Origin: Sedimentisphaerales bacterium | GTDB lineage: Bacteria > Planctomycetota > Phycisphaerae > Sedimentisphaerales > SM23-30 | Assembly (NCBI GenBank): GCA_030640865.1 | Contig: DAOWIP010000512.1 | Span: forward strand, 1 to 17,071 | Reading direction: 5' to 3' | Length of the DNA stretch: 17,071 nucleotides | Shown: piece by piece, positions 9,530-16,760 of the stretch | Layout of the letters: the number at the start of each line of letters is the position of its first letter | How positions within the stretch are numbered: the stretch's first letter is position 1 | Position numbers and translations under genes: made by a program | The notes under the pieces: generated by a model | Told to the model about the DNA's origin: nothing | What the model saw: the letters and a program-made list of their open reading frames with translations, nothing else | The model's database searches: none

Positions 9530-9979
9530 ATGGCAGTTACCAAGACCGTTAAACAAGACAAGCCCACCCATACCAACATAGACGACCTGTTGCCGGGCGA
9601 CCTGCTCAGCGATGACGAACAGGTTGTCTTTGCTGTCAAGCCATCGCTCTGGACGATCGCCTTTTTGCAATGGCTAATCCGCAGCTATGTCCTTACCGAC
9701 AATCGTGTCATTCGTATCCGCGGGGTGTTGACCATCGACATTTTCCAGTGTTCACTCGTGCGTATCCAGAACACCTTTTTAGTTTTGACACTGCCCCAGC
9801 GGCTTTTGGGCCTGGGCAGTATCGTTTTCGCCACCGCCGGCACCGGTTCTGTCGAGGCAATATGGCAGCATATCAAAAACCCTCTTAGTATTCATCAACA
9901 GCTTATCCGCGCCATCAACGCCGCCGGTAGCAAACCAATCACGCCAACAGAGGGAACCGGCGGTGATAAATCATTATAG
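9530..9979 (+). CDS. Bacterial PH-domain (YdbS/DUF304-like) protein
   Basis: The 149-residue protein matches the bacterial pleckstrin-homology fold family. The segment YVLTDNRVIRIRGVLTIDIF, then QCSLVRIQNTFLVLTLPQRLLGLGSIVFATAG and EAIWQHIKNP, is the typical series of strands and the closing helix. The domain covers about residues 22-130. In YdbS-type proteins the PH domain follows membrane helices; here only a modest hydrophobic patch (PSLWTIAFLQWLIRSY) precedes it, so membrane association is uncertain. Its biochemical role in bacteria is poorly defined. ATG 9530 has no SD. The next gene, the sheath-like fusion, starts 65 nt later on the same strand behind a REP hairpin, so the two may be co-transcribed. 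Whether this domain works with the sheath protein is speculation. Confidence 0.75.
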   Translation: MAVTKTVKQDKPTHTNIDDLLPGDLLSDDEQVVFAVKPSLWTIAFLQWLIRSYVLTDNRVIRIRGVLTIDIFQCSLVRIQNTFLVLTLPQRLLGLGSIVFATAGTGSVEAIWQHIKNPLSIHQQLIRAINAAGSKPITPTEGTGGDKSL

Positions 9980-10043: not shown

Positions 10044-11636
10044 ATGTCCACAAACTTTACCCCAGGCAATATCGAGTTCGCGTTCAGAACGTCAAAATCA
10101 GCGGCTCATCCGCAGCCGTCAGACGATACGCCGTTTCGCCTTGTTGTGATGGGCGACTTCAGCGGCCGGAGCAATCGCGGCCTGTGTGAGACTGGAGCGG
10201 CACTAACCGCACGACGGCCGATTATGGTGGATGTGGACAATTTCGACCGGCTGCCGGCCAAACTCGACGCCGAGATTCACATCCCCGTCGGTGGCGAGGA
10301 AGGATCACGAATCGCGATTCGTTTTACCGAATTAGATGATTTTCATCCGGACAGTTTGTTCGACAAGATCGATATGTTCCAAAAATTGAAGTCGCTTCGT
10401 CGGCGTCTGAAGGATTCGAGTACATTTGCCGAGGCAGCCGCGGAGGTCCGCCTCTGCTATGCCGACCAGGCAGCTATCGACCAGACCACTGACGACCAAG
10501 TCACTGACAGCAATGTAAGTACGGCTCCGGCAGAGACAAAACCGGTTCAGAAAAGCGAAGCGGATGCCGATACAATCGAACGGCTGCTGGGCAAGCCTGC
10601 CACAGCTAAACAACCAACTCACATTGCGGGGAAAATCGCTGGTGTGGACGCCCTGATCCGCGACGCCGTCAAACCTTATATTGTCCCCACTCCCGACCCG
10701 CAACAGGATGAGCTTGTCGGACAAATTGATCAGGCTGTCAGCGGTCAGATGCGCGGCATTCTGCATCATCCGGACTTTCAGCGGCTCGAATCCGCGTGGC
10801 GGACTTTGCACTTTCTCGTTAGTAATATCGAAACGGACGAGACACTCAAGCTATATGTAATTGATATAAGCAGGGAAGAATTGGCCGCCGACCTAACCGA
10901 GGCGGAGTCGCTGCCGCGGAGCGGCATATATCGCATGCTTGTCGAGCAGTCCGTGAGCGTCCCCGGCGCCGACCCCTGGGCGGCCTTTCTCGGTTGTTAC
11001 AGTTTCGATCAGACGGCTGAAGACATAACCCTACTGCAAAAATTGGCTGGTGTTGCCCGGTCAGCCGGAGCGCCGTTCCTGACCGCCGCCCATCCTCATT
11101 TCGCCGGCTGTGAATCGTTTGCCGCCACCCCCGATCCGGACAATTGGCAATGGCAGCCGGATGCCGCGACTGCTCAAAAATGGCACGAACTCCGCACCTC
11201 GCCCGAGGCGGCCTCGCTCGGTCTGACTCTGCCGCGATTCCTGCTGCGTCTGCCCTATGGACGCGACGGCGAGTCTGTTGAGCGATTCGATTTCGAGGAA
11301 CTGCCCGATAAGGCTGCTCACGAAAAGTATTTATGGGGCAATTCGGCCGTCCTTTGTGCGTATCTATTGGCCCAGGCGTTTCGCGTGTCCGGCTGGTCTC
11401 TTACAAATGCGCTACAGACCGAGGTAACAGGGTTGCCTATGTATGTGTGCGAGACCGCCGGCGAAAAACAAATTGTCCCCTGCGCGGAAAACTACTTGAC
11501 CGAGCGGGCAATGCAAAGCCTTATTGACAGCGGGCTTATCCCTATGCTGAGTGTGAAGGGCCGGAATAGCGTCCTGGTTCCGCGGTTTCAGTCCGTTGGC
11601 GAGCCGCCGAGTCGCCTCGCTGGACGCTGGCAATAA
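10044..11636 (+). CDS. TssB-TssC fused type VI sheath-like protein, lacking the TssC C-terminal domain
   Basis: TssB (VipA) and TssC (VipB) normally form the contractile sheath of the type VI secretion system as two proteins. Here one 530-residue protein has a TssB-like part (about 1-140; FRLVVMGDFSGRSNRG at 31-46, then FDRLPAKLDAEIHI), a disordered Asp/Thr/Ala-rich linker (about 141-200) and a TssC-like part (about 200-515). The TssC part shows ILHHPDFQRLESAWRTLHFL (239-258), LYVIDISREEL (270-280), LGLTLPRFLLRLPYG (392-406) and YLWGNSAVLCA (429-439). It ends just after GLIPMLSVKGRNSVLVPRF, where usual TssC proteins continue for roughly 130 residues (VipB_2 region). The start has GGAGG at 9 nt. 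No other T6SS gene is in the window. A non-secretory sheath-derived role or an unlinked T6SS are both open. Confidence 0.85.
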   Translation: MSTNFTPGNIEFAFRTSKSAAHPQPSDDTPFRLVVMGDFSGRSNRGLCETGAALTARRPIMVDVDNFDRLPAKLDAEIHIPVGGEEGSRIAIRFTELDDFHPDSLFDKIDMFQKLKSLRRRLKDSSTFAEAAAEVRLCYADQAAIDQTTDDQVTDSNVSTAPAETKPVQKSEADADTIERLLGKPATAKQPTHIAGKIAGVDALIRDAVKPYIVPTPDPQQDELVGQIDQAVSGQMRGILHHPDFQRLESAWRTLHFLVSNIETDETLKLYVIDISREELAADLTEAESLPRSGIYRMLVEQSVSVPGADPWAAFLGCYSFDQTAEDITLLQKLAGVARSAGAPFLTAAHPHFAGCESFAATPDPDNWQWQPDAATAQKWHELRTSPEAASLGLTLPRFLLRLPYGRDGESVERFDFEELPDKAAHEKYLWGNSAVLCAYLLAQAFRVSGWSLTNALQTEVTGLPMYVCETAGEKQIVPCAENYLTERAMQSLIDSGLIPMLSVKGRNSVLVPRFQSVGEPPSRLAGRWQ

Positions 11637-12969: not shown

Positions 12970-15063
12970 ATGAGTCATTATATTGTATTAGTTAAGCAGG
13001 TACCTGACGTAACACAGATTACCGATAACGCGTTCGACCCTGAGACCGGCAACCTGATGCGTGGCAAGCTGGCCACCGTGATAAATGAGCTGGACGCTCA
13101 GGCTTTGGCGTTTGCCGACCGAATGAGGCAGCTCGATGCGACTTCAGACGGGAAGGTTATCGCCCTGACTATGGGGCCGCCTATGGCTGAAGAGGTGCTG
13201 CGTTACAGCCTGGCTCGCAGGGCCGATATGGCTGTGCTGTTGACTGACCGGTCTCTTGGCGGGGCCGATACGGTTGCGACGGCTAATCCCCTGGCTTATG
13301 CCGTCCGAAAAATTGTCAAGGACCTGTTAGGCGATACAAAGGACTATTTTGTCGTCTCCGGTATGCAGTCTGTCGATGGCGACACGGCCCAGGTGCCCGC
13401 CCAGATTGCGGAAGAGTTGGCCCTGCCCTGTATCGCTTATGCCACCGACGTCGAACGAAAAAACGGTCATCTTGAATTCACCAGGATTATCAGCGGCGGC
13501 AGTCAGATCGTAACGCCTAAAGAACTGCCGGCTGTCATTACCGTGGCCAAGTATGAATATCCGCTGTTCGCCACCTTTGCCGGCGGACGCCGTGCCAACG
13601 ATATGAAACTCGTCGTTTGGGGGACTGATGATGTAAAACCCACCCAGATAGGGGTAAAAGGTTCCAAGACCCGCGTTATCCGGGTCTTTCCGCCGCCCCA
13701 CACCTCCAGAAAATGTCAGGCAATCGAAAATGTCGGGGAATTTGCCCAACTGCTCATCGACAGCTATAAAAGTAACCAGGGCAATGGCGAAGCGGACGAT
13801 AAAACCGGGGCTAACTATGTTCTGCCCAGAAAAAGAGCCGACAAATTCGATCGGCACTACGAAGGCACGAAAAAGGAAAGCGAAGCCTTCATTAACCTGG
13901 CCGAAAAATTAGAAGCCCTGGGTATAAAAGATGCCGCTGATGTGGACGAGGCAATCAAGGAAAAAATCCTTGCTGATATTGACACGAAGCTGAACAAAAG
14001 GACCCTCGACAACCTGCTTTCTGGGATGCAGGCAGTTAAGCCGAGTTATTCCGGCGAGGTGTGGGTTATCGCTGAGCATGACGGCAGTCAGATGCACCCT
14101 GCTACCTTCGAATTGATCGGTAAGGCACGCGACCTGGCCGATTCTCTTGAGACCAAGGTTGGCGTGGTGATTGCCGGTGAAAAAGTCGAACCGATGGCCG
14201 AATCGTCGATCGAGGCCGGCGCGGACAATATTTATGTTATCGATGACGATCTGCTCGAACCGTTCGACCCGGCCGCCCATCGCACAGTTGTCGCCGAGGT
14301 GGTTAAGAAGTATGGGCCGCAGATCGCCCTTTATGCCGCCACGCCACGAGGTCGCGTACTGGCTCCGATGGTGTCCTATCGGCTGGGCTGCGGCCTGACC
14401 GCGGACTGCACGTCGCTGGACATCCGGGACAGTTCCCGAAAAGGCGACATTGCCGTGCTTATGCAGACACGGCCCGCTCTGGGCGGTAATGTGATGGCCA
14501 CTATCTGTACAAAGGATTCGAACTGCCAGATGGCCACGGCCCGGCCGGGTGTGATGAAACGGCTGCCCCCTGATAAGTCCCGTAAAGGCAGTATTATTCG
14601 GCATGAGGTGAAACTGACCAAAGGCGATCTCAGCATGAATATTATCAAGACCGAAGTCGGCCTTGGTACTGTGAATTTCGACGCCGACATTATCGTCTCC
14701 GGCGGTAAAGGTATTTCAAGCAAAGACAGTTTCGAGAAATGCACATCCGATCTCTGCAAGGCCCTCGCCGACAAACTCGACGCCGAGGTCGAGTACGGCG
14801 CCTCGCGGGCCGCCGTTGAACAGGGCTATGTCGAACGTGTGCATCAGGTCGGCCAGACCGGCACCGCTGTGGGACCGCGGATTTATCTCGCAATGGGTAT
14901 CTCCGGCGCTATCCAGCACATGATTGGTGTGGCCAACAGCGAAACAATTTTCGCTATCAACAGCGATCCTAACGCGCCAATTCTGAAACAATGTGATTAT
15001 TATATCGTGGGCAACGTTGAAGACATCGTGCCCCAGCTTGTCGAAACATTGGGAGCCAAATAG
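12970..15063 (+). CDS. Fused electron transfer flavoprotein, EtfB-EtfA
   Basis: ETF collects electrons from acyl-CoA and related dehydrogenases and passes them to ETF-quinone oxidoreductase. Usually two genes encode it; here both parts are in one 697-residue protein. EtfB (about 1-264) shows VLVKQVPD near the start and SGMQSVDGDTAQVPAQIAEELALP (130-153, written in part). A charged linker of about 100 residues (about 265-362) joins it to EtfA (about 363-697). EtfA starts GEVWVIAEHDG and has the FAD-binding VGQTGTAVGP (627-636) and GISGAIQHMIG (643-653), then FAINSDPNAPIL. ATG 12970 has AAGGG 9 nt upstream. The ETF-QO gene starts 2 nt after the stop. No acyl-CoA dehydrogenase is adjacent, so the electron donor is unknown. 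The frame is open throughout, so fusion is genuine rather than a frameshift. Confidence 0.92.
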   Translation: MSHYIVLVKQVPDVTQITDNAFDPETGNLMRGKLATVINELDAQALAFADRMRQLDATSDGKVIALTMGPPMAEEVLRYSLARRADMAVLLTDRSLGGADTVATANPLAYAVRKIVKDLLGDTKDYFVVSGMQSVDGDTAQVPAQIAEELALPCIAYATDVERKNGHLEFTRIISGGSQIVTPKELPAVITVAKYEYPLFATFAGGRRANDMKLVVWGTDDVKPTQIGVKGSKTRVIRVFPPPHTSRKCQAIENVGEFAQLLIDSYKSNQGNGEADDKTGANYVLPRKRADKFDRHYEGTKKESEAFINLAEKLEALGIKDAADVDEAIKEKILADIDTKLNKRTLDNLLSGMQAVKPSYSGEVWVIAEHDGSQMHPATFELIGKARDLADSLETKVGVVIAGEKVEPMAESSIEAGADNIYVIDDDLLEPFDPAAHRTVVAEVVKKYGPQIALYAATPRGRVLAPMVSYRLGCGLTADCTSLDIRDSSRKGDIAVLMQTRPALGGNVMATICTKDSNCQMATARPGVMKRLPPDKSRKGSIIRHEVKLTKGDLSMNIIKTEVGLGTVNFDADIIVSGGKGISSKDSFEKCTSDLCKALADKLDAEVEYGASRAAVEQGYVERVHQVGQTGTAVGPRIYLAMGISGAIQHMIGVANSETIFAINSDPNAPILKQCDYYIVGNVEDIVPQLVETLGAK

Positions 15064-15065
15064 AA

Positions 15066-16760
15066 GTGTCCAAAACCAAAAACTATAGCAAAGTTGACGT
15101 CTTGGTCGTCGGCGCCGGACCTGCCGGTCTGGCCGCGGCCATCACCCTCAAAAAGAAAAAACCAGACCTGGATATTTGTGTGCTTGACAAGGCCCATGAG
15201 CCCGGCGGCCATAATCTGTCCGGCGCCGTTATGGAAGAGCAGGCACTGATCGATTTGCTTGAGATAGCCAATGTCGATTGGCGTAACAGCGAACCGGCAC
15301 GGGAAATCTTCGGCCGTCGTATCGAAAAGGATAATGTTCTGCTGTTTCTGGGCAGTAAGCGGGCTGTTACTATGATGCCCGCTATCAAAATGGCGAAATT
15401 GATCCGCCTCGGCTTCGGCCAGATGGTGCATGAGGGGGACTATATTGTCTCAATCAGCAAACTGACGAAGTGGCTCACCCAACTGGCGAAGGATGTTGGG
15501 GTCGAGGTACTGCACGGTTTCGCGGCTGAGGACATCCTTATGGACGACCAGGACAGCCGAGCCGTGGGGGTCAGGCTTATCGAGCAGGGACTCGATAAAG
15601 AGGGCAAGCAACAGCCCAATTACGTTCCCGGTGAAACCGTAGCCGCCGATGTCATTATTCTCGCTGAGGGTTGTGACGGACTGCTGACCGAAATGTTCGT
15701 CAGTAAAGCCAATCTCCGGCGGCTCTCGCATCAGCTTTTCTCCGTTTGTGCCAAGGAGCTTATCGAGGTCAGCCCTGAGCAGTATCAAAAATTCGGCGAT
15801 AACCGTGTTGTCCACGCGATGGGGTACCCCATCTGGACGCCCCTGCTCGGACCGGCGATGTTCGGCGGCGGTATTATGTATTCTTTCGGCAATAATCAGA
15901 TAGCTGTCGGTATGATTGTCGGCGCCGACTGGAAATTCTGCAATTTCAATCCGCAGGAGGCGCTGGTCCGGTTCAAGGAACACGAATTTGTAAAACAATT
16001 TATTGACGGCGGCACCGTGGTCGAAGCTGGTGCCAAGATGATCCCGGAAGGCGGCTATTATGCCATACCACGCGATCCGCGGACAAATTCAATCGGCAAA
16101 AATAATGTGCTTATCCTCGGTGACAGCGCCGGCTTTGTCAACATGCTCAAAATCAAGGGCCTGCACAACGCCATCAATTCCGGCATCGCTGCCGGGACGG
16201 CCATTGCCGAAAACATAGCCGGCGACATCGACCATACTGCCGTGCGTTATACCGAACTTCTCCAGGCCGGCCCTGTCGAAAAAGAAATGCTTTCCGCCCG
16301 CAACTTCCGCCAGACCGTTGCCAAATTCGGTAACTCAATCGGCATGCCTTTATCGAGCTTAGGCGGTCTTCTGCCGCGTTTCAATGTCGAAAAAGACTAT
16401 GAGGCAATGACCACCGATCAATATGAACTGGCTACGGAGAAACCGTTCGACAAGGACTCTTTTACCGCGATGGCGATTGTGGAGCATCGGGAGGAGGAGC
16501 CCTGCCATTTAATAATTGATGATCCGGAAATCTGCGAGACAAAATGCAAAGACACCTACGGCGATCTGTGCGGCGAATACGGCCGTCCCTGCGTGGCTTT
16601 CTGCCCGGCTGGCGTCTATGAAATAATCCACGACGAGATGAAACCGGCCAATCCGTCAAACTGCCTGCACTGCAAGACCTGTCAGAACAAGTGCCCGTAT
16701 GATAATATTCGCTGGGTCGTCCCGGAAGGCGGCGGCGGACCACGATTCAGAAATATGTAA
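15066..16760 (+). CDS. Electron transfer flavoprotein-ubiquinone/quinone oxidoreductase
   Basis: ETF-QO takes electrons from reduced ETF and reduces membrane quinone, using FAD and one 4Fe-4S cluster. The 564-residue length is normal. The N-terminal FAD-binding Rossmann motif is VLVVGAGPAGLAAA (about 10-23), followed by HEPGGHNLSGAVM. A further FAD motif, VLILGDSAGFVNMLKIKGLH, lies at about 349-368. The C-terminal cluster domain has C513 (FCPAGVYE) and C533-x2-C536-x2-C539 (NCLHCKTC), the four expected ligands, plus extra cysteines at 509 and 543. The GTG start at 15066 follows the EtfBA stop by 2 nt with GGGAG 10 nt upstream, so the two are translationally coupled. Membrane association should be monotopic, as no full transmembrane helix is seen. 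The protein equals FixC joined to a FixX-like ferredoxin. Confidence 0.92.
   Translation: MSKTKNYSKVDVLVVGAGPAGLAAAITLKKKKPDLDICVLDKAHEPGGHNLSGAVMEEQALIDLLEIANVDWRNSEPAREIFGRRIEKDNVLLFLGSKRAVTMMPAIKMAKLIRLGFGQMVHEGDYIVSISKLTKWLTQLAKDVGVEVLHGFAAEDILMDDQDSRAVGVRLIEQGLDKEGKQQPNYVPGETVAADVIILAEGCDGLLTEMFVSKANLRRLSHQLFSVCAKELIEVSPEQYQKFGDNRVVHAMGYPIWTPLLGPAMFGGGIMYSFGNNQIAVGMIVGADWKFCNFNPQEALVRFKEHEFVKQFIDGGTVVEAGAKMIPEGGYYAIPRDPRTNSIGKNNVLILGDSAGFVNMLKIKGLHNAINSGIAAGTAIAENIAGDIDHTAVRYTELLQAGPVEKEMLSARNFRQTVAKFGNSIGMPLSSLGGLLPRFNVEKDYEAMTTDQYELATEKPFDKDSFTAMAIVEHREEEPCHLIIDDPEICETKCKDTYGDLCGEYGRPCVAFCPAGVYEIIHDEMKPANPSNCLHCKTCQNKCPYDNIRWVVPEGGGGPRFRNM

Follow-up and report, generated by a model that had tools for sequence, protein, structure and literature searches.

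A conserved TssB–TssC fusion without the VipB_2 domain accompanies type VI secretion in many phyla and is a candidate third sheath protein

The DNA analysed here, a 17,071-nucleotide stretch from a Sedimentisphaerales bacterium (GenBank assembly GCA_030640865.1, contig DAOWIP010000512.1) referred to below as the window, makes up an entire contig (G000:C457 1-17071). It carries a gene for a 530-residue protein in which TssB and the N-terminal part of TssC, the two subunits of the type VI secretion system (T6SS) sheath, are joined in one chain that stops before the VipB_2 domain. This short TssB–TssC(N) design characterises an old family; the gene is neither stray nor broken, and the evidence that the family belongs to type VI secretion, alongside normal machines, is strong. 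We tentatively favour the view that the fusion is a dedicated accessory sheath subunit forming a terminal, non-extendable distal layer. The fuller picture, a third T6SS sheath protein that is pre-fused and handshake-less, ends the sheath distally and sets its length or stability in at least eight phyla, is put forward with more doubt.

The initial annotation had read both sheath subunits in a single chain, and Pfam assigns T6SS_VipA (PF05591) to residues 27–125 of the open reading frame (ORF; profile positions 24–123 of 155, 52.2 bits, cut-off 24) and VipB (PF05943) to residues 222–513 (profile positions 1–295 of 301, 247.9 bits, cut-off 27). VipB_2 (PF18945) was absent from the Pfam matches of the 530-residue fusion at E 0.01. 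In the canonical TssC of the same genome, VipB ends at residue 383 and VipB_2, matched with 148.7 bits, begins at 393. The NCBIfam model of the TssC equivalog, TIGR03355, is covered over positions 4–343 of 473, leaving about 130 positions missing, the shortfall that had been estimated for the TssC half. The fusion scores below the cut-off of this model (244.2 against 271.5; relatives 250.7 and 184.6) and of the TssB equivalog model TIGR03358 (46.6 against 97.25), its TssB part being fused and not a separate subunit. The ORF opens with ATG downstream of a GGAGG-like site. An AlphaFold2 model built on a 91-row alignment (A2, which drew on 70 of the 80 loci and 20 of the 120 homologues described below) has a mean predicted local distance difference test (pLDDT) of 86.9 and a predicted template modelling score of 0.83. 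It keeps the middle-layer sheath fold and ends near the VipB_2 start, its last residue aligning to VipB residue 398; the conserved C-terminus, LVPRFQSVGEPPSRLAGRWQ, stops near the expected start of that domain. Values of pLDDT below 50 are confined to residues 1–5, 7–18, 156–162, 164–173 and 183–200, the last three segments lying between the TssB core and the TssC domain, in agreement with the disordered linker annotated at the outset.

The arm ahead of the TssB core carries a strand-like pattern: position 10 is I, V, M or L in 72 of 84 rows, position 12 is F, L, V or I in 86 of 90, and position 14 is L, V, I or F in 81 of 89, with E or D most frequent between them. The pattern lies about 20 residues ahead of the core, the place of the handshake donor strand in canonical TssB, with a spacing close to that of strand 1 in canonical TssB N-termini, and the arm is probably the counterpart of that strand.

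A protein search scored 8,000 candidates and returned 2,343 relatives at E 0.001, canonical TssC possibly among them; the best 120 of these are all 510–544 residues long and carry PF05591 and PF05943. From 397 related stretches located by a genome scan, the best 80 were examined (the 80 loci). The encoded protein is 490–550 residues long in 72 of them, and several of the others end at a contig edge. The loci fall under eight phylum labels and, with the class relatives, form one clade. The labels comprise Planctomycetota (including Candidatus Brocadia), Acidobacteriota, Nitrospirota, Gemmatimonadota, Rokuibacteriota, Desulfobacteria and other deltaproteobacteria, Verrucomicrobiota (Pedosphaera) and, among gammaproteobacteria, Competibacteraceae, Sedimenticola and a Lamellibrachia symbiont; most loci are metagenome bins, and individual taxon labels may err. 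The ending F[QRH][SA]...W is found in 71 of the 80 loci, mostly in the form RFQSxADPxxxLAGRW, and W529, L525 and S517 are each kept in 89 of 91 alignment rows and G527 in 88. In a tree of 113 rows (12 of 125 near-duplicate or partial rows having been removed beforehand), the 82 short fusions make up a single clade, separate from canonical TssC, with an SH-aLRT of 100, and a smaller, careful tree of 44 rows supports the clade at 100/100. The ratio dN/dS is 0.07–0.18 in nine of ten close pairs, some with members in common; the tenth pair is near-identical. VipB_2 occurs exactly once in each TssC-bearing genome of a 151-genome class sample (32/32), at the canonical TssC and nowhere else. Constant length, dN/dS and the kept C-terminus rule out a recent truncation, a frameshift or an assembly artefact. 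The notion of a truncated chain thus gives way, the best 120 homologues having the same length; the two refutations proposed in the initial annotation, a VipB_2 domain in the chain or full-length homologues, did not materialise, and those 120 held no longer form of the window's protein.

We next examined the gene surroundings of the family. Stretches of up to 9 kb per side were fetched, many contigs being shorter; genes were named through sequence clusters, whose representatives were checked against Pfam and NCBIfam. At least one T6SS core or vgrG cluster is present in 44 of the 80 loci, and at least three in 24. A frequent order is tssB-tssC-hcp-tssE-tssF-tssG-clpV, zero to two genes, then the fusion; the clpV-then-fusion order is seen in L096, L097, L102, L104, L106, L108, L134, L137 and L158, some of these being interrupted where the contig or the fetched stretch ends, or having no hcp or tssE that was recognised, and in L096, L097, L108, L137 and L158 vgrG stands next to the fusion or one or two genes beyond. 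In Acidobacteriota and Gemmatimonadota the fusion lies ahead of tssB-tssC-hcp-tagJ-tssA-tssE-tssF-tssG (L111, L115, L122, L142, L149 and L165, some incomplete), and 10 kb separate fusion and TssC in the complete genome of Candidatus Brocadia pituitae.

The window's own genome has T6SS genes on other contigs. Pfam identifies tssK, tssL and tssM on contig C97 and, on C501, tssB, tssC and two hcp genes; sequence clustering alone points to a piece of tssA. The fusion gene is unlinked to these genes. The fusion had been called 'lone', a description at odds with these two contigs and with the many relatives whose genes lie in T6SS operons. The accompanying statement that no T6SS genes are nearby stands for the window, in which none were recognised, and reaches about 10 kb upstream and 5.4 kb downstream only, because the window is the whole contig. 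Of Hcp, TssK and ClpV, for which a search beyond the window had been suggested, the first two are present in this genome. Its single AAA_lid_9 match fits ClpB better than ClpV (958 against 747 bits, both under the cut-off). Distances also vary in related genomes: fusion and tssC lie more than 2 Mb apart in the single-contig genome G032, and on one contig in G068, with the fusion near the tssM end of the cluster.

Fusion and canonical TssC occur together. A canonical-type TssC match is present in 48 of 50 fusion genomes, partial or broken in three (G485, G487, G508). The class sample consisted of 151 evenly drawn genomes from the class of a Terriglobia bacterium, and here the fusion was found in 16 of 32 genomes with canonical TssC and in 0 of 119 without (Fisher p 4e-13), or in 13 of 29 against 0 of 119 when three genomes already in the set are left out. 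The 16 include G579, in which the fusion is cut by a contig end, and G604, in which it is in pieces; a 38-position match at E 8e-5 in G535 was counted as chance, and the match in G562 joins neighbouring tssB and tssC across a stop. Within the window's order, 7 of 161 genomes carry the fusion, six of them with canonical TssC (one partial), and the seventh, G014, is 54% complete; canonical TssC alone is found in five genomes, the matches in G039 and G040 being fragmentary. In a gammaproteobacterial sample, PF05943 was matched in 49 of 276 genomes, with matches under 240 bits, sorted by score alone, in 17 of the 49. Fusion and partner TssC have also diverged together: across 45 genomes with a near-full canonical match (G467, G480, G485, G487 and G508 excluded), their distances correlate with a rho of 0.61, reached in 0 of 999 permutations, with species relatedness uncontrolled.

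The linker adds a second tie to TssC. Within its otherwise disordered course the AlphaFold2 model places a short helix, at about the position of the ClpV-binding helix (LLDEII type or its class alternative) at the N-terminus of TssC, and ClpV binding by it is putative. The initial annotation had the ClpV-recognised surface lost with the missing domain; this TssC-like candidate helix speaks otherwise. A second class of TssC has been described that is without the ClpV-binding motif and tends to accompany TagJ (PMC4239648, PMC5807055). Among the fusions, class A has an LLDQIL-like helix, in most acidobacterial, nitrospiral, desulfobacterial and Brocadia members, with an LLDQII-like partner TssC, and class B, in Phycisphaerae-type and most gammaproteobacterial members, an ERLLGK-like motif with an EFESLL-like partner; the window's fusion and its own TssC are both class B. 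Of 91 fusions, 30 have a strict LLDxII-type pattern in the linker, compared with a mean of 0.06 rows in shuffled linkers. Read by alignment columns, 42 pairs (three of the 45 fall outside the alignment) comprise 32 A/A, 7 B/B, none discordant and 3 unclassified, so that 39 of 39 classifiable pairs agree; an earlier reading of 45 pairs, with a poorly placed search interval, gave 24 A/A, 8 B/B, 3 A/B and 10 unclassified. The Fisher p of 6.5e-8 for the class match overstates independence, because the classes were set post hoc and follow a deep branch. As far as these sequences can tell, the match represents one or few events, yet shows long joint inheritance of fusion and TssC.

The T6SS sheath has been described as a repeat of a single TssB–TssC unit whose baseplate-distal end has TssA or TagA (PMC6745524), and a cryo-EM study of the distal end calls the protein composition there unclear (PMC5813253). 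As described in the same study, every sheath subunit reaches its neighbours with two arms, the N-terminal strand of TssB and the C-terminal strand of TssC; the arms go to the ring nearer the baseplate, domain 1 receives them, and TssE is proposed as the acceptor for the first ring (PMC5813253). The picture of the arm partners is not fully settled, because work on P. aeruginosa places the partner of the TssB arm in the same disc (PMC5807055). The canonical sheath proteins (VipA/VipB; PDB 5n8n, 3j9g, 5urw) are two chains, whereas the fusion is one; unlike canonical TssC, the fusion, without VipB_2, has no handshake acceptor and no C-terminal arm, and ends in a C-terminus of its own. It accompanies canonical TssB and TssC rather than replacing them. 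The combination of a probable donor strand with no handshake acceptor leads us to propose a subunit of the sheath end; a part in ending the sheath or controlling its length would come naturally to a conserved sheath-like protein without the domain for the next ring. In the proposed mechanism, the fusion would be a single-chain protomer without domain 1 (the gp25-like VipB_2, with its acceptor strands and C-terminal donor arm) that retains the middle-layer fold, an N-terminal donor arm resembling that of TssB and a helix of the ClpV-binding type. It would dock by its N-arm onto the last ring of the sheath, and the next ring would be unable to build on it. This distal-end layer would limit or stabilise sheath growth together with TssA, and ClpV would remove the fusion along with the remaining sheath. 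The distal end appears to be the simplest place, with TssE or a free seed as its rivals.

Several known proteins resemble the fusion in part. TssA and TagA are alike in proposed place and role, limiting or stabilising growth at the sheath end (PMC6745524); TssA is of another family (ImpA_N), with genes in the same clusters as the fusion. TagJ/HsiE1 (ImpE) is likewise a T6SS accessory, tied to the sheath and to the ClpV classes (PMC4239648); it too is of another family, encoded by a separate gene in some fusion-bearing clusters. The single-chain sheaths of extracellular contractile injection systems, pyocins and phages (PDB 9qgl, 6rao, 6j0n) align with the fusion in fold, but at 6–13% identity, T6SS sheath matches being far stronger. 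These sheaths continue beyond the matched part (for example, 20–292 of 383), whereas the fusion is without a VipB_2-type C-terminal handshake end.

The closest described relative is TssCL, a TssB–TssC fusion of 1,684 residues from roseobacter T6SS clusters that also have tssB and tssC, published in 2022; its authors report it only from Alphaproteobacteria, assign it no function and give its Pfam content as VipA and one VipB (PF05943), with no second VipB (PMC9515649). Apart from TssCL, we found no such fusion described among the papers listed from the open-licence literature, and other descriptions may exist. TssCL and the window's protein have in common VipA and one VipB in a chain and canonical tssB/tssC in the genome; they differ in that TssCL has a further VipA domain, its greater length and an acidic tail, and the window's protein 530 residues and one PF05591 match. 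A plasmid protein search returned 435 records with TssC-like matches, 40 of them listed. The first 23 of these 40 cover 91–99% of the window's protein at 31–34% identity. Of these, 22 lie inside one annotated gene and one (H23) across two; 22 come from Rhodobacterales, Leisingera among them, and the remaining one from the betaproteobacterium Eleftheria terrae. Matches listed below them are mostly tssC with a neighbouring tssB. Leisingera and its relatives align to residues 11–529 (98% of the query, about 33% identity), and the Leisingera-type fusion, with PF05591 and PF05943, sits between tssH and vgrG. Three fetched plasmid fusions, all in T6SS clusters, gave no VipB_2 match at E 1 and have an acidic tail after the core, ending DMDAEL.ALL or EMDAELAALL. 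From its organism, its place and a frame open for 953 codons upstream, the Leisingera caerulea gene appears to be TssCL, and TssCL, which was presented as something new in Alphaproteobacteria, very probably belongs as one branch to a far wider fusion family. The roseobacter branch is already in print, without a function (PMC9515649); new here are the family's occurrence across many phyla, the consistent absence of VipB_2 from the members examined, the T6SS dependence, the class-matched motif and a testable mechanism. Outside the roseobacters, annotations give the family as TssC/ImpC or 'contractile sheath domain-containing protein', and T6SS gene counts can mislead because automatic annotation counts it as TssC. 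Acidic low-complexity tails ending in an M[DP]..LAALL-like motif were noted at L233:12019-13800, L234:6459-9650, L235:7956-9734 and L064:8829-10619; these fusions come from Alphaproteobacteria, a betaproteobacterium and one genome of the window's class (L064), and both alphaproteobacterial ones have long upstream extensions.

A number of observations weigh against a distal-end subunit. The place in the sheath is putative, and the structure is a monomer model, in which the N-arm is disordered; conservation of the arm is moderate. A second end protein is not strictly needed, because TssA is encoded in the same clusters. No recognised T6SS core cluster lies in the fetched stretch of 36 of the 80 loci, canonical TssC gave no match in two of the 50 fusion genomes (G467 and G480), and the fusion is missing from half (16/32) of the genomes with TssC in the sampled class. 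G850 and G674 have a match under 240 bits with no canonical match, which, if these are fusions, speaks against strict dependence on T6SS. No ClpV was seen in the window's genome assembly (86% complete, 601 contigs). The motif match tracks one deep branch, with classes defined after the sequences had been viewed, and the roseobacter branch has no evident linker motif and a long acidic tail after its core.

The half-handshake anatomy would also suit the other end of the sheath. The fusion could act there as a brake or placeholder, its N-arm docking on TssE or on short TssBC seeds and blocking premature polymerisation until ClpV removes it. TssE is a gp25-like acceptor (PMC5813253), the linker holds a ClpV-type motif, and the fusion gene lies near clpV and vgrG in several operons; nothing, however, points to TssE specifically, and the distal end of every sheath has a like acceptor. 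We regard a role at the sheath start as unlikely, though the least so of the alternatives. Slightly less probable is a paralogue repurposed outside the sheath, for another T6SS step such as VgrG or effector loading or as a cytoplasmic scaffold. In 16 of the 80 loci a vgrG-cluster gene is the nearest ORF of at least 100 residues on one side of the fusion, and many copies, the window's included, have no T6SS gene nearby, but the family follows TssC in occurrence, divergence and motif class, and the unlinked copies examined have no partner gene in common. The initial annotation had offered a reduced sheath or a repurposed protein; the former does not fit an addition to a normal sheath, and the latter survives as a possible specialised, non-polymerising paralogue. 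A similarly low probability, marginally below the last, goes to a ClpV adaptor or decoy that presents the flexible helix and tunes sheath disassembly, as proposed for TagJ/HsiE1. The motif does sit between two folded domains, and its class follows the partner TssC; yet the sheath fold and conserved C-terminus exceed an adaptor's needs, some of the clusters with the fusion also have TagJ/ImpE, the roseobacter branch shows no evident motif and ClpV binding is putative. A separate fused, non-contractile sheath tube beside the normal one is improbable: known sheaths are held together by a handshake domain that the fusion does not have, and canonical TssC almost always accompanies the fusion (48/50). 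That the gene is a decaying duplicate, or an artefact of assembly or truncation, has nothing but the missing domain in its favour and can practically be dismissed given 510–544 residues in the best 120 homologues, 490–550 in 72 of 80 loci and dN/dS of 0.07–0.18. The distal-end subunit thus stays our preferred, if tentative, reading. Coordinates of the gene and its parts are collected in Table 1.

Table 1 Features of the TssB–TssC(N) fusion gene in the window
Feature	Position	Strand	Basis
Whole gene, TssB–TssC(N) fusion, 530 aa	10044..11636	+	ORF, Pfam, homologue architecture
N-terminal arm, aa 1–29, strand-like pattern aa 10–14	10044..10130	+	Column counts in 91-row alignment
TssB/VipA core, aa 30–150	10131..10493	+	PF05591 at 27–125, confident fold in model
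Linker, aa 151–216, mostly disordered	10494..10691	+	Three segments with pLDDT <50
Linker motif DADTIERLLGK, aa 174–184, helix 174–181 (ClpV binding putative)	10563..10595	+	Model, alignment, motif counts
TssC/VipB N-terminal domain	10707..11585	+	
Family-specific C-terminus LVPRFQSVGEPPSRLAGRWQ	11574..11633	+	Conserved columns; mean pLDDT 89 in last block

Other families of the window's class likewise have a fused second sheath protein beside canonical TssC. These long fusions, of about 570–610 residues with a divergent VipB_2-like end, are a second kind of fused extra sheath protein (L047:18161-19984, L050:2828-4648, L051:2141-3964, L053, L056, L058, L066, L078 and L079), and several lie 17–21 kb from canonical tssC on the same contig. 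They were considered as full-length parents of the window's protein and rejected, the trees keeping two separate clades; a common fusion origin of short and long forms is decided neither way by the trees (AU p 0.315). In an hhalign comparison the last 125 residues of the long fusions match VipB_2 weakly, though in colinear order (probability 71). Neither these long fusions nor canonical TssC C-termini were linked to TssE in that comparison, which is therefore insensitive at such a distance.

In the window, the fusion gene is flanked upstream by a gene for a bPH_2 protein (9530–9979) and on the other side by one for a TIM barrel with a likely ATG at about 11815, as initially annotated; the TIM-barrel start reads TRRSFLKQ, which we take to be a Tat-like motif. 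Neither clustered with genes of other class loci, and they were rejected as conserved partners, as was any partner gene outside the T6SS, none being common to the unlinked named loci. PQQ/BamB-like genes near the fusion in the window and in G032 cluster together; FGE-sulfatase, TPR, TrkH and methyltransferase genes near other copies have no theme in common.

Further genes were noted at other loci. A small gene that looks acetyltransferase-like by eye lies directly beside the fusion in five loci (L108:8499-8969, L117:8497-8967, L155:10505-11002, L096:10544-11023 and L114:3919-4389). In Brocadia-type genomes, two small unassigned genes separate clpV from the fusion (L104:8042-8982, L106:8093-8985) and might, at a guess, be an effector and immunity pair. 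A gene of 321–397 residues with a start like AFGKHPGWDDHI and no Pfam or NCBIfam match follows tssM (L068:7174-8139, L060:7432-8397, L005:6312-7505); it adjoins the fusion in G068 and G072 and is also present on the T6SS contig of the window's genome.

Elsewhere in the window, positions 1279–2262 encode a DnaJ-type protein with J and C-terminal domains and no Pfam match to the cysteine-rich zinc domain. The ORF at 12970–15063 encodes a 697-residue protein in which the electron transfer flavoprotein (ETF) beta and alpha subunits are seemingly fused (two ETF domains and ETF_alpha), directly followed by an ETF-quinone oxidoreductase-like gene at 15066–16760.
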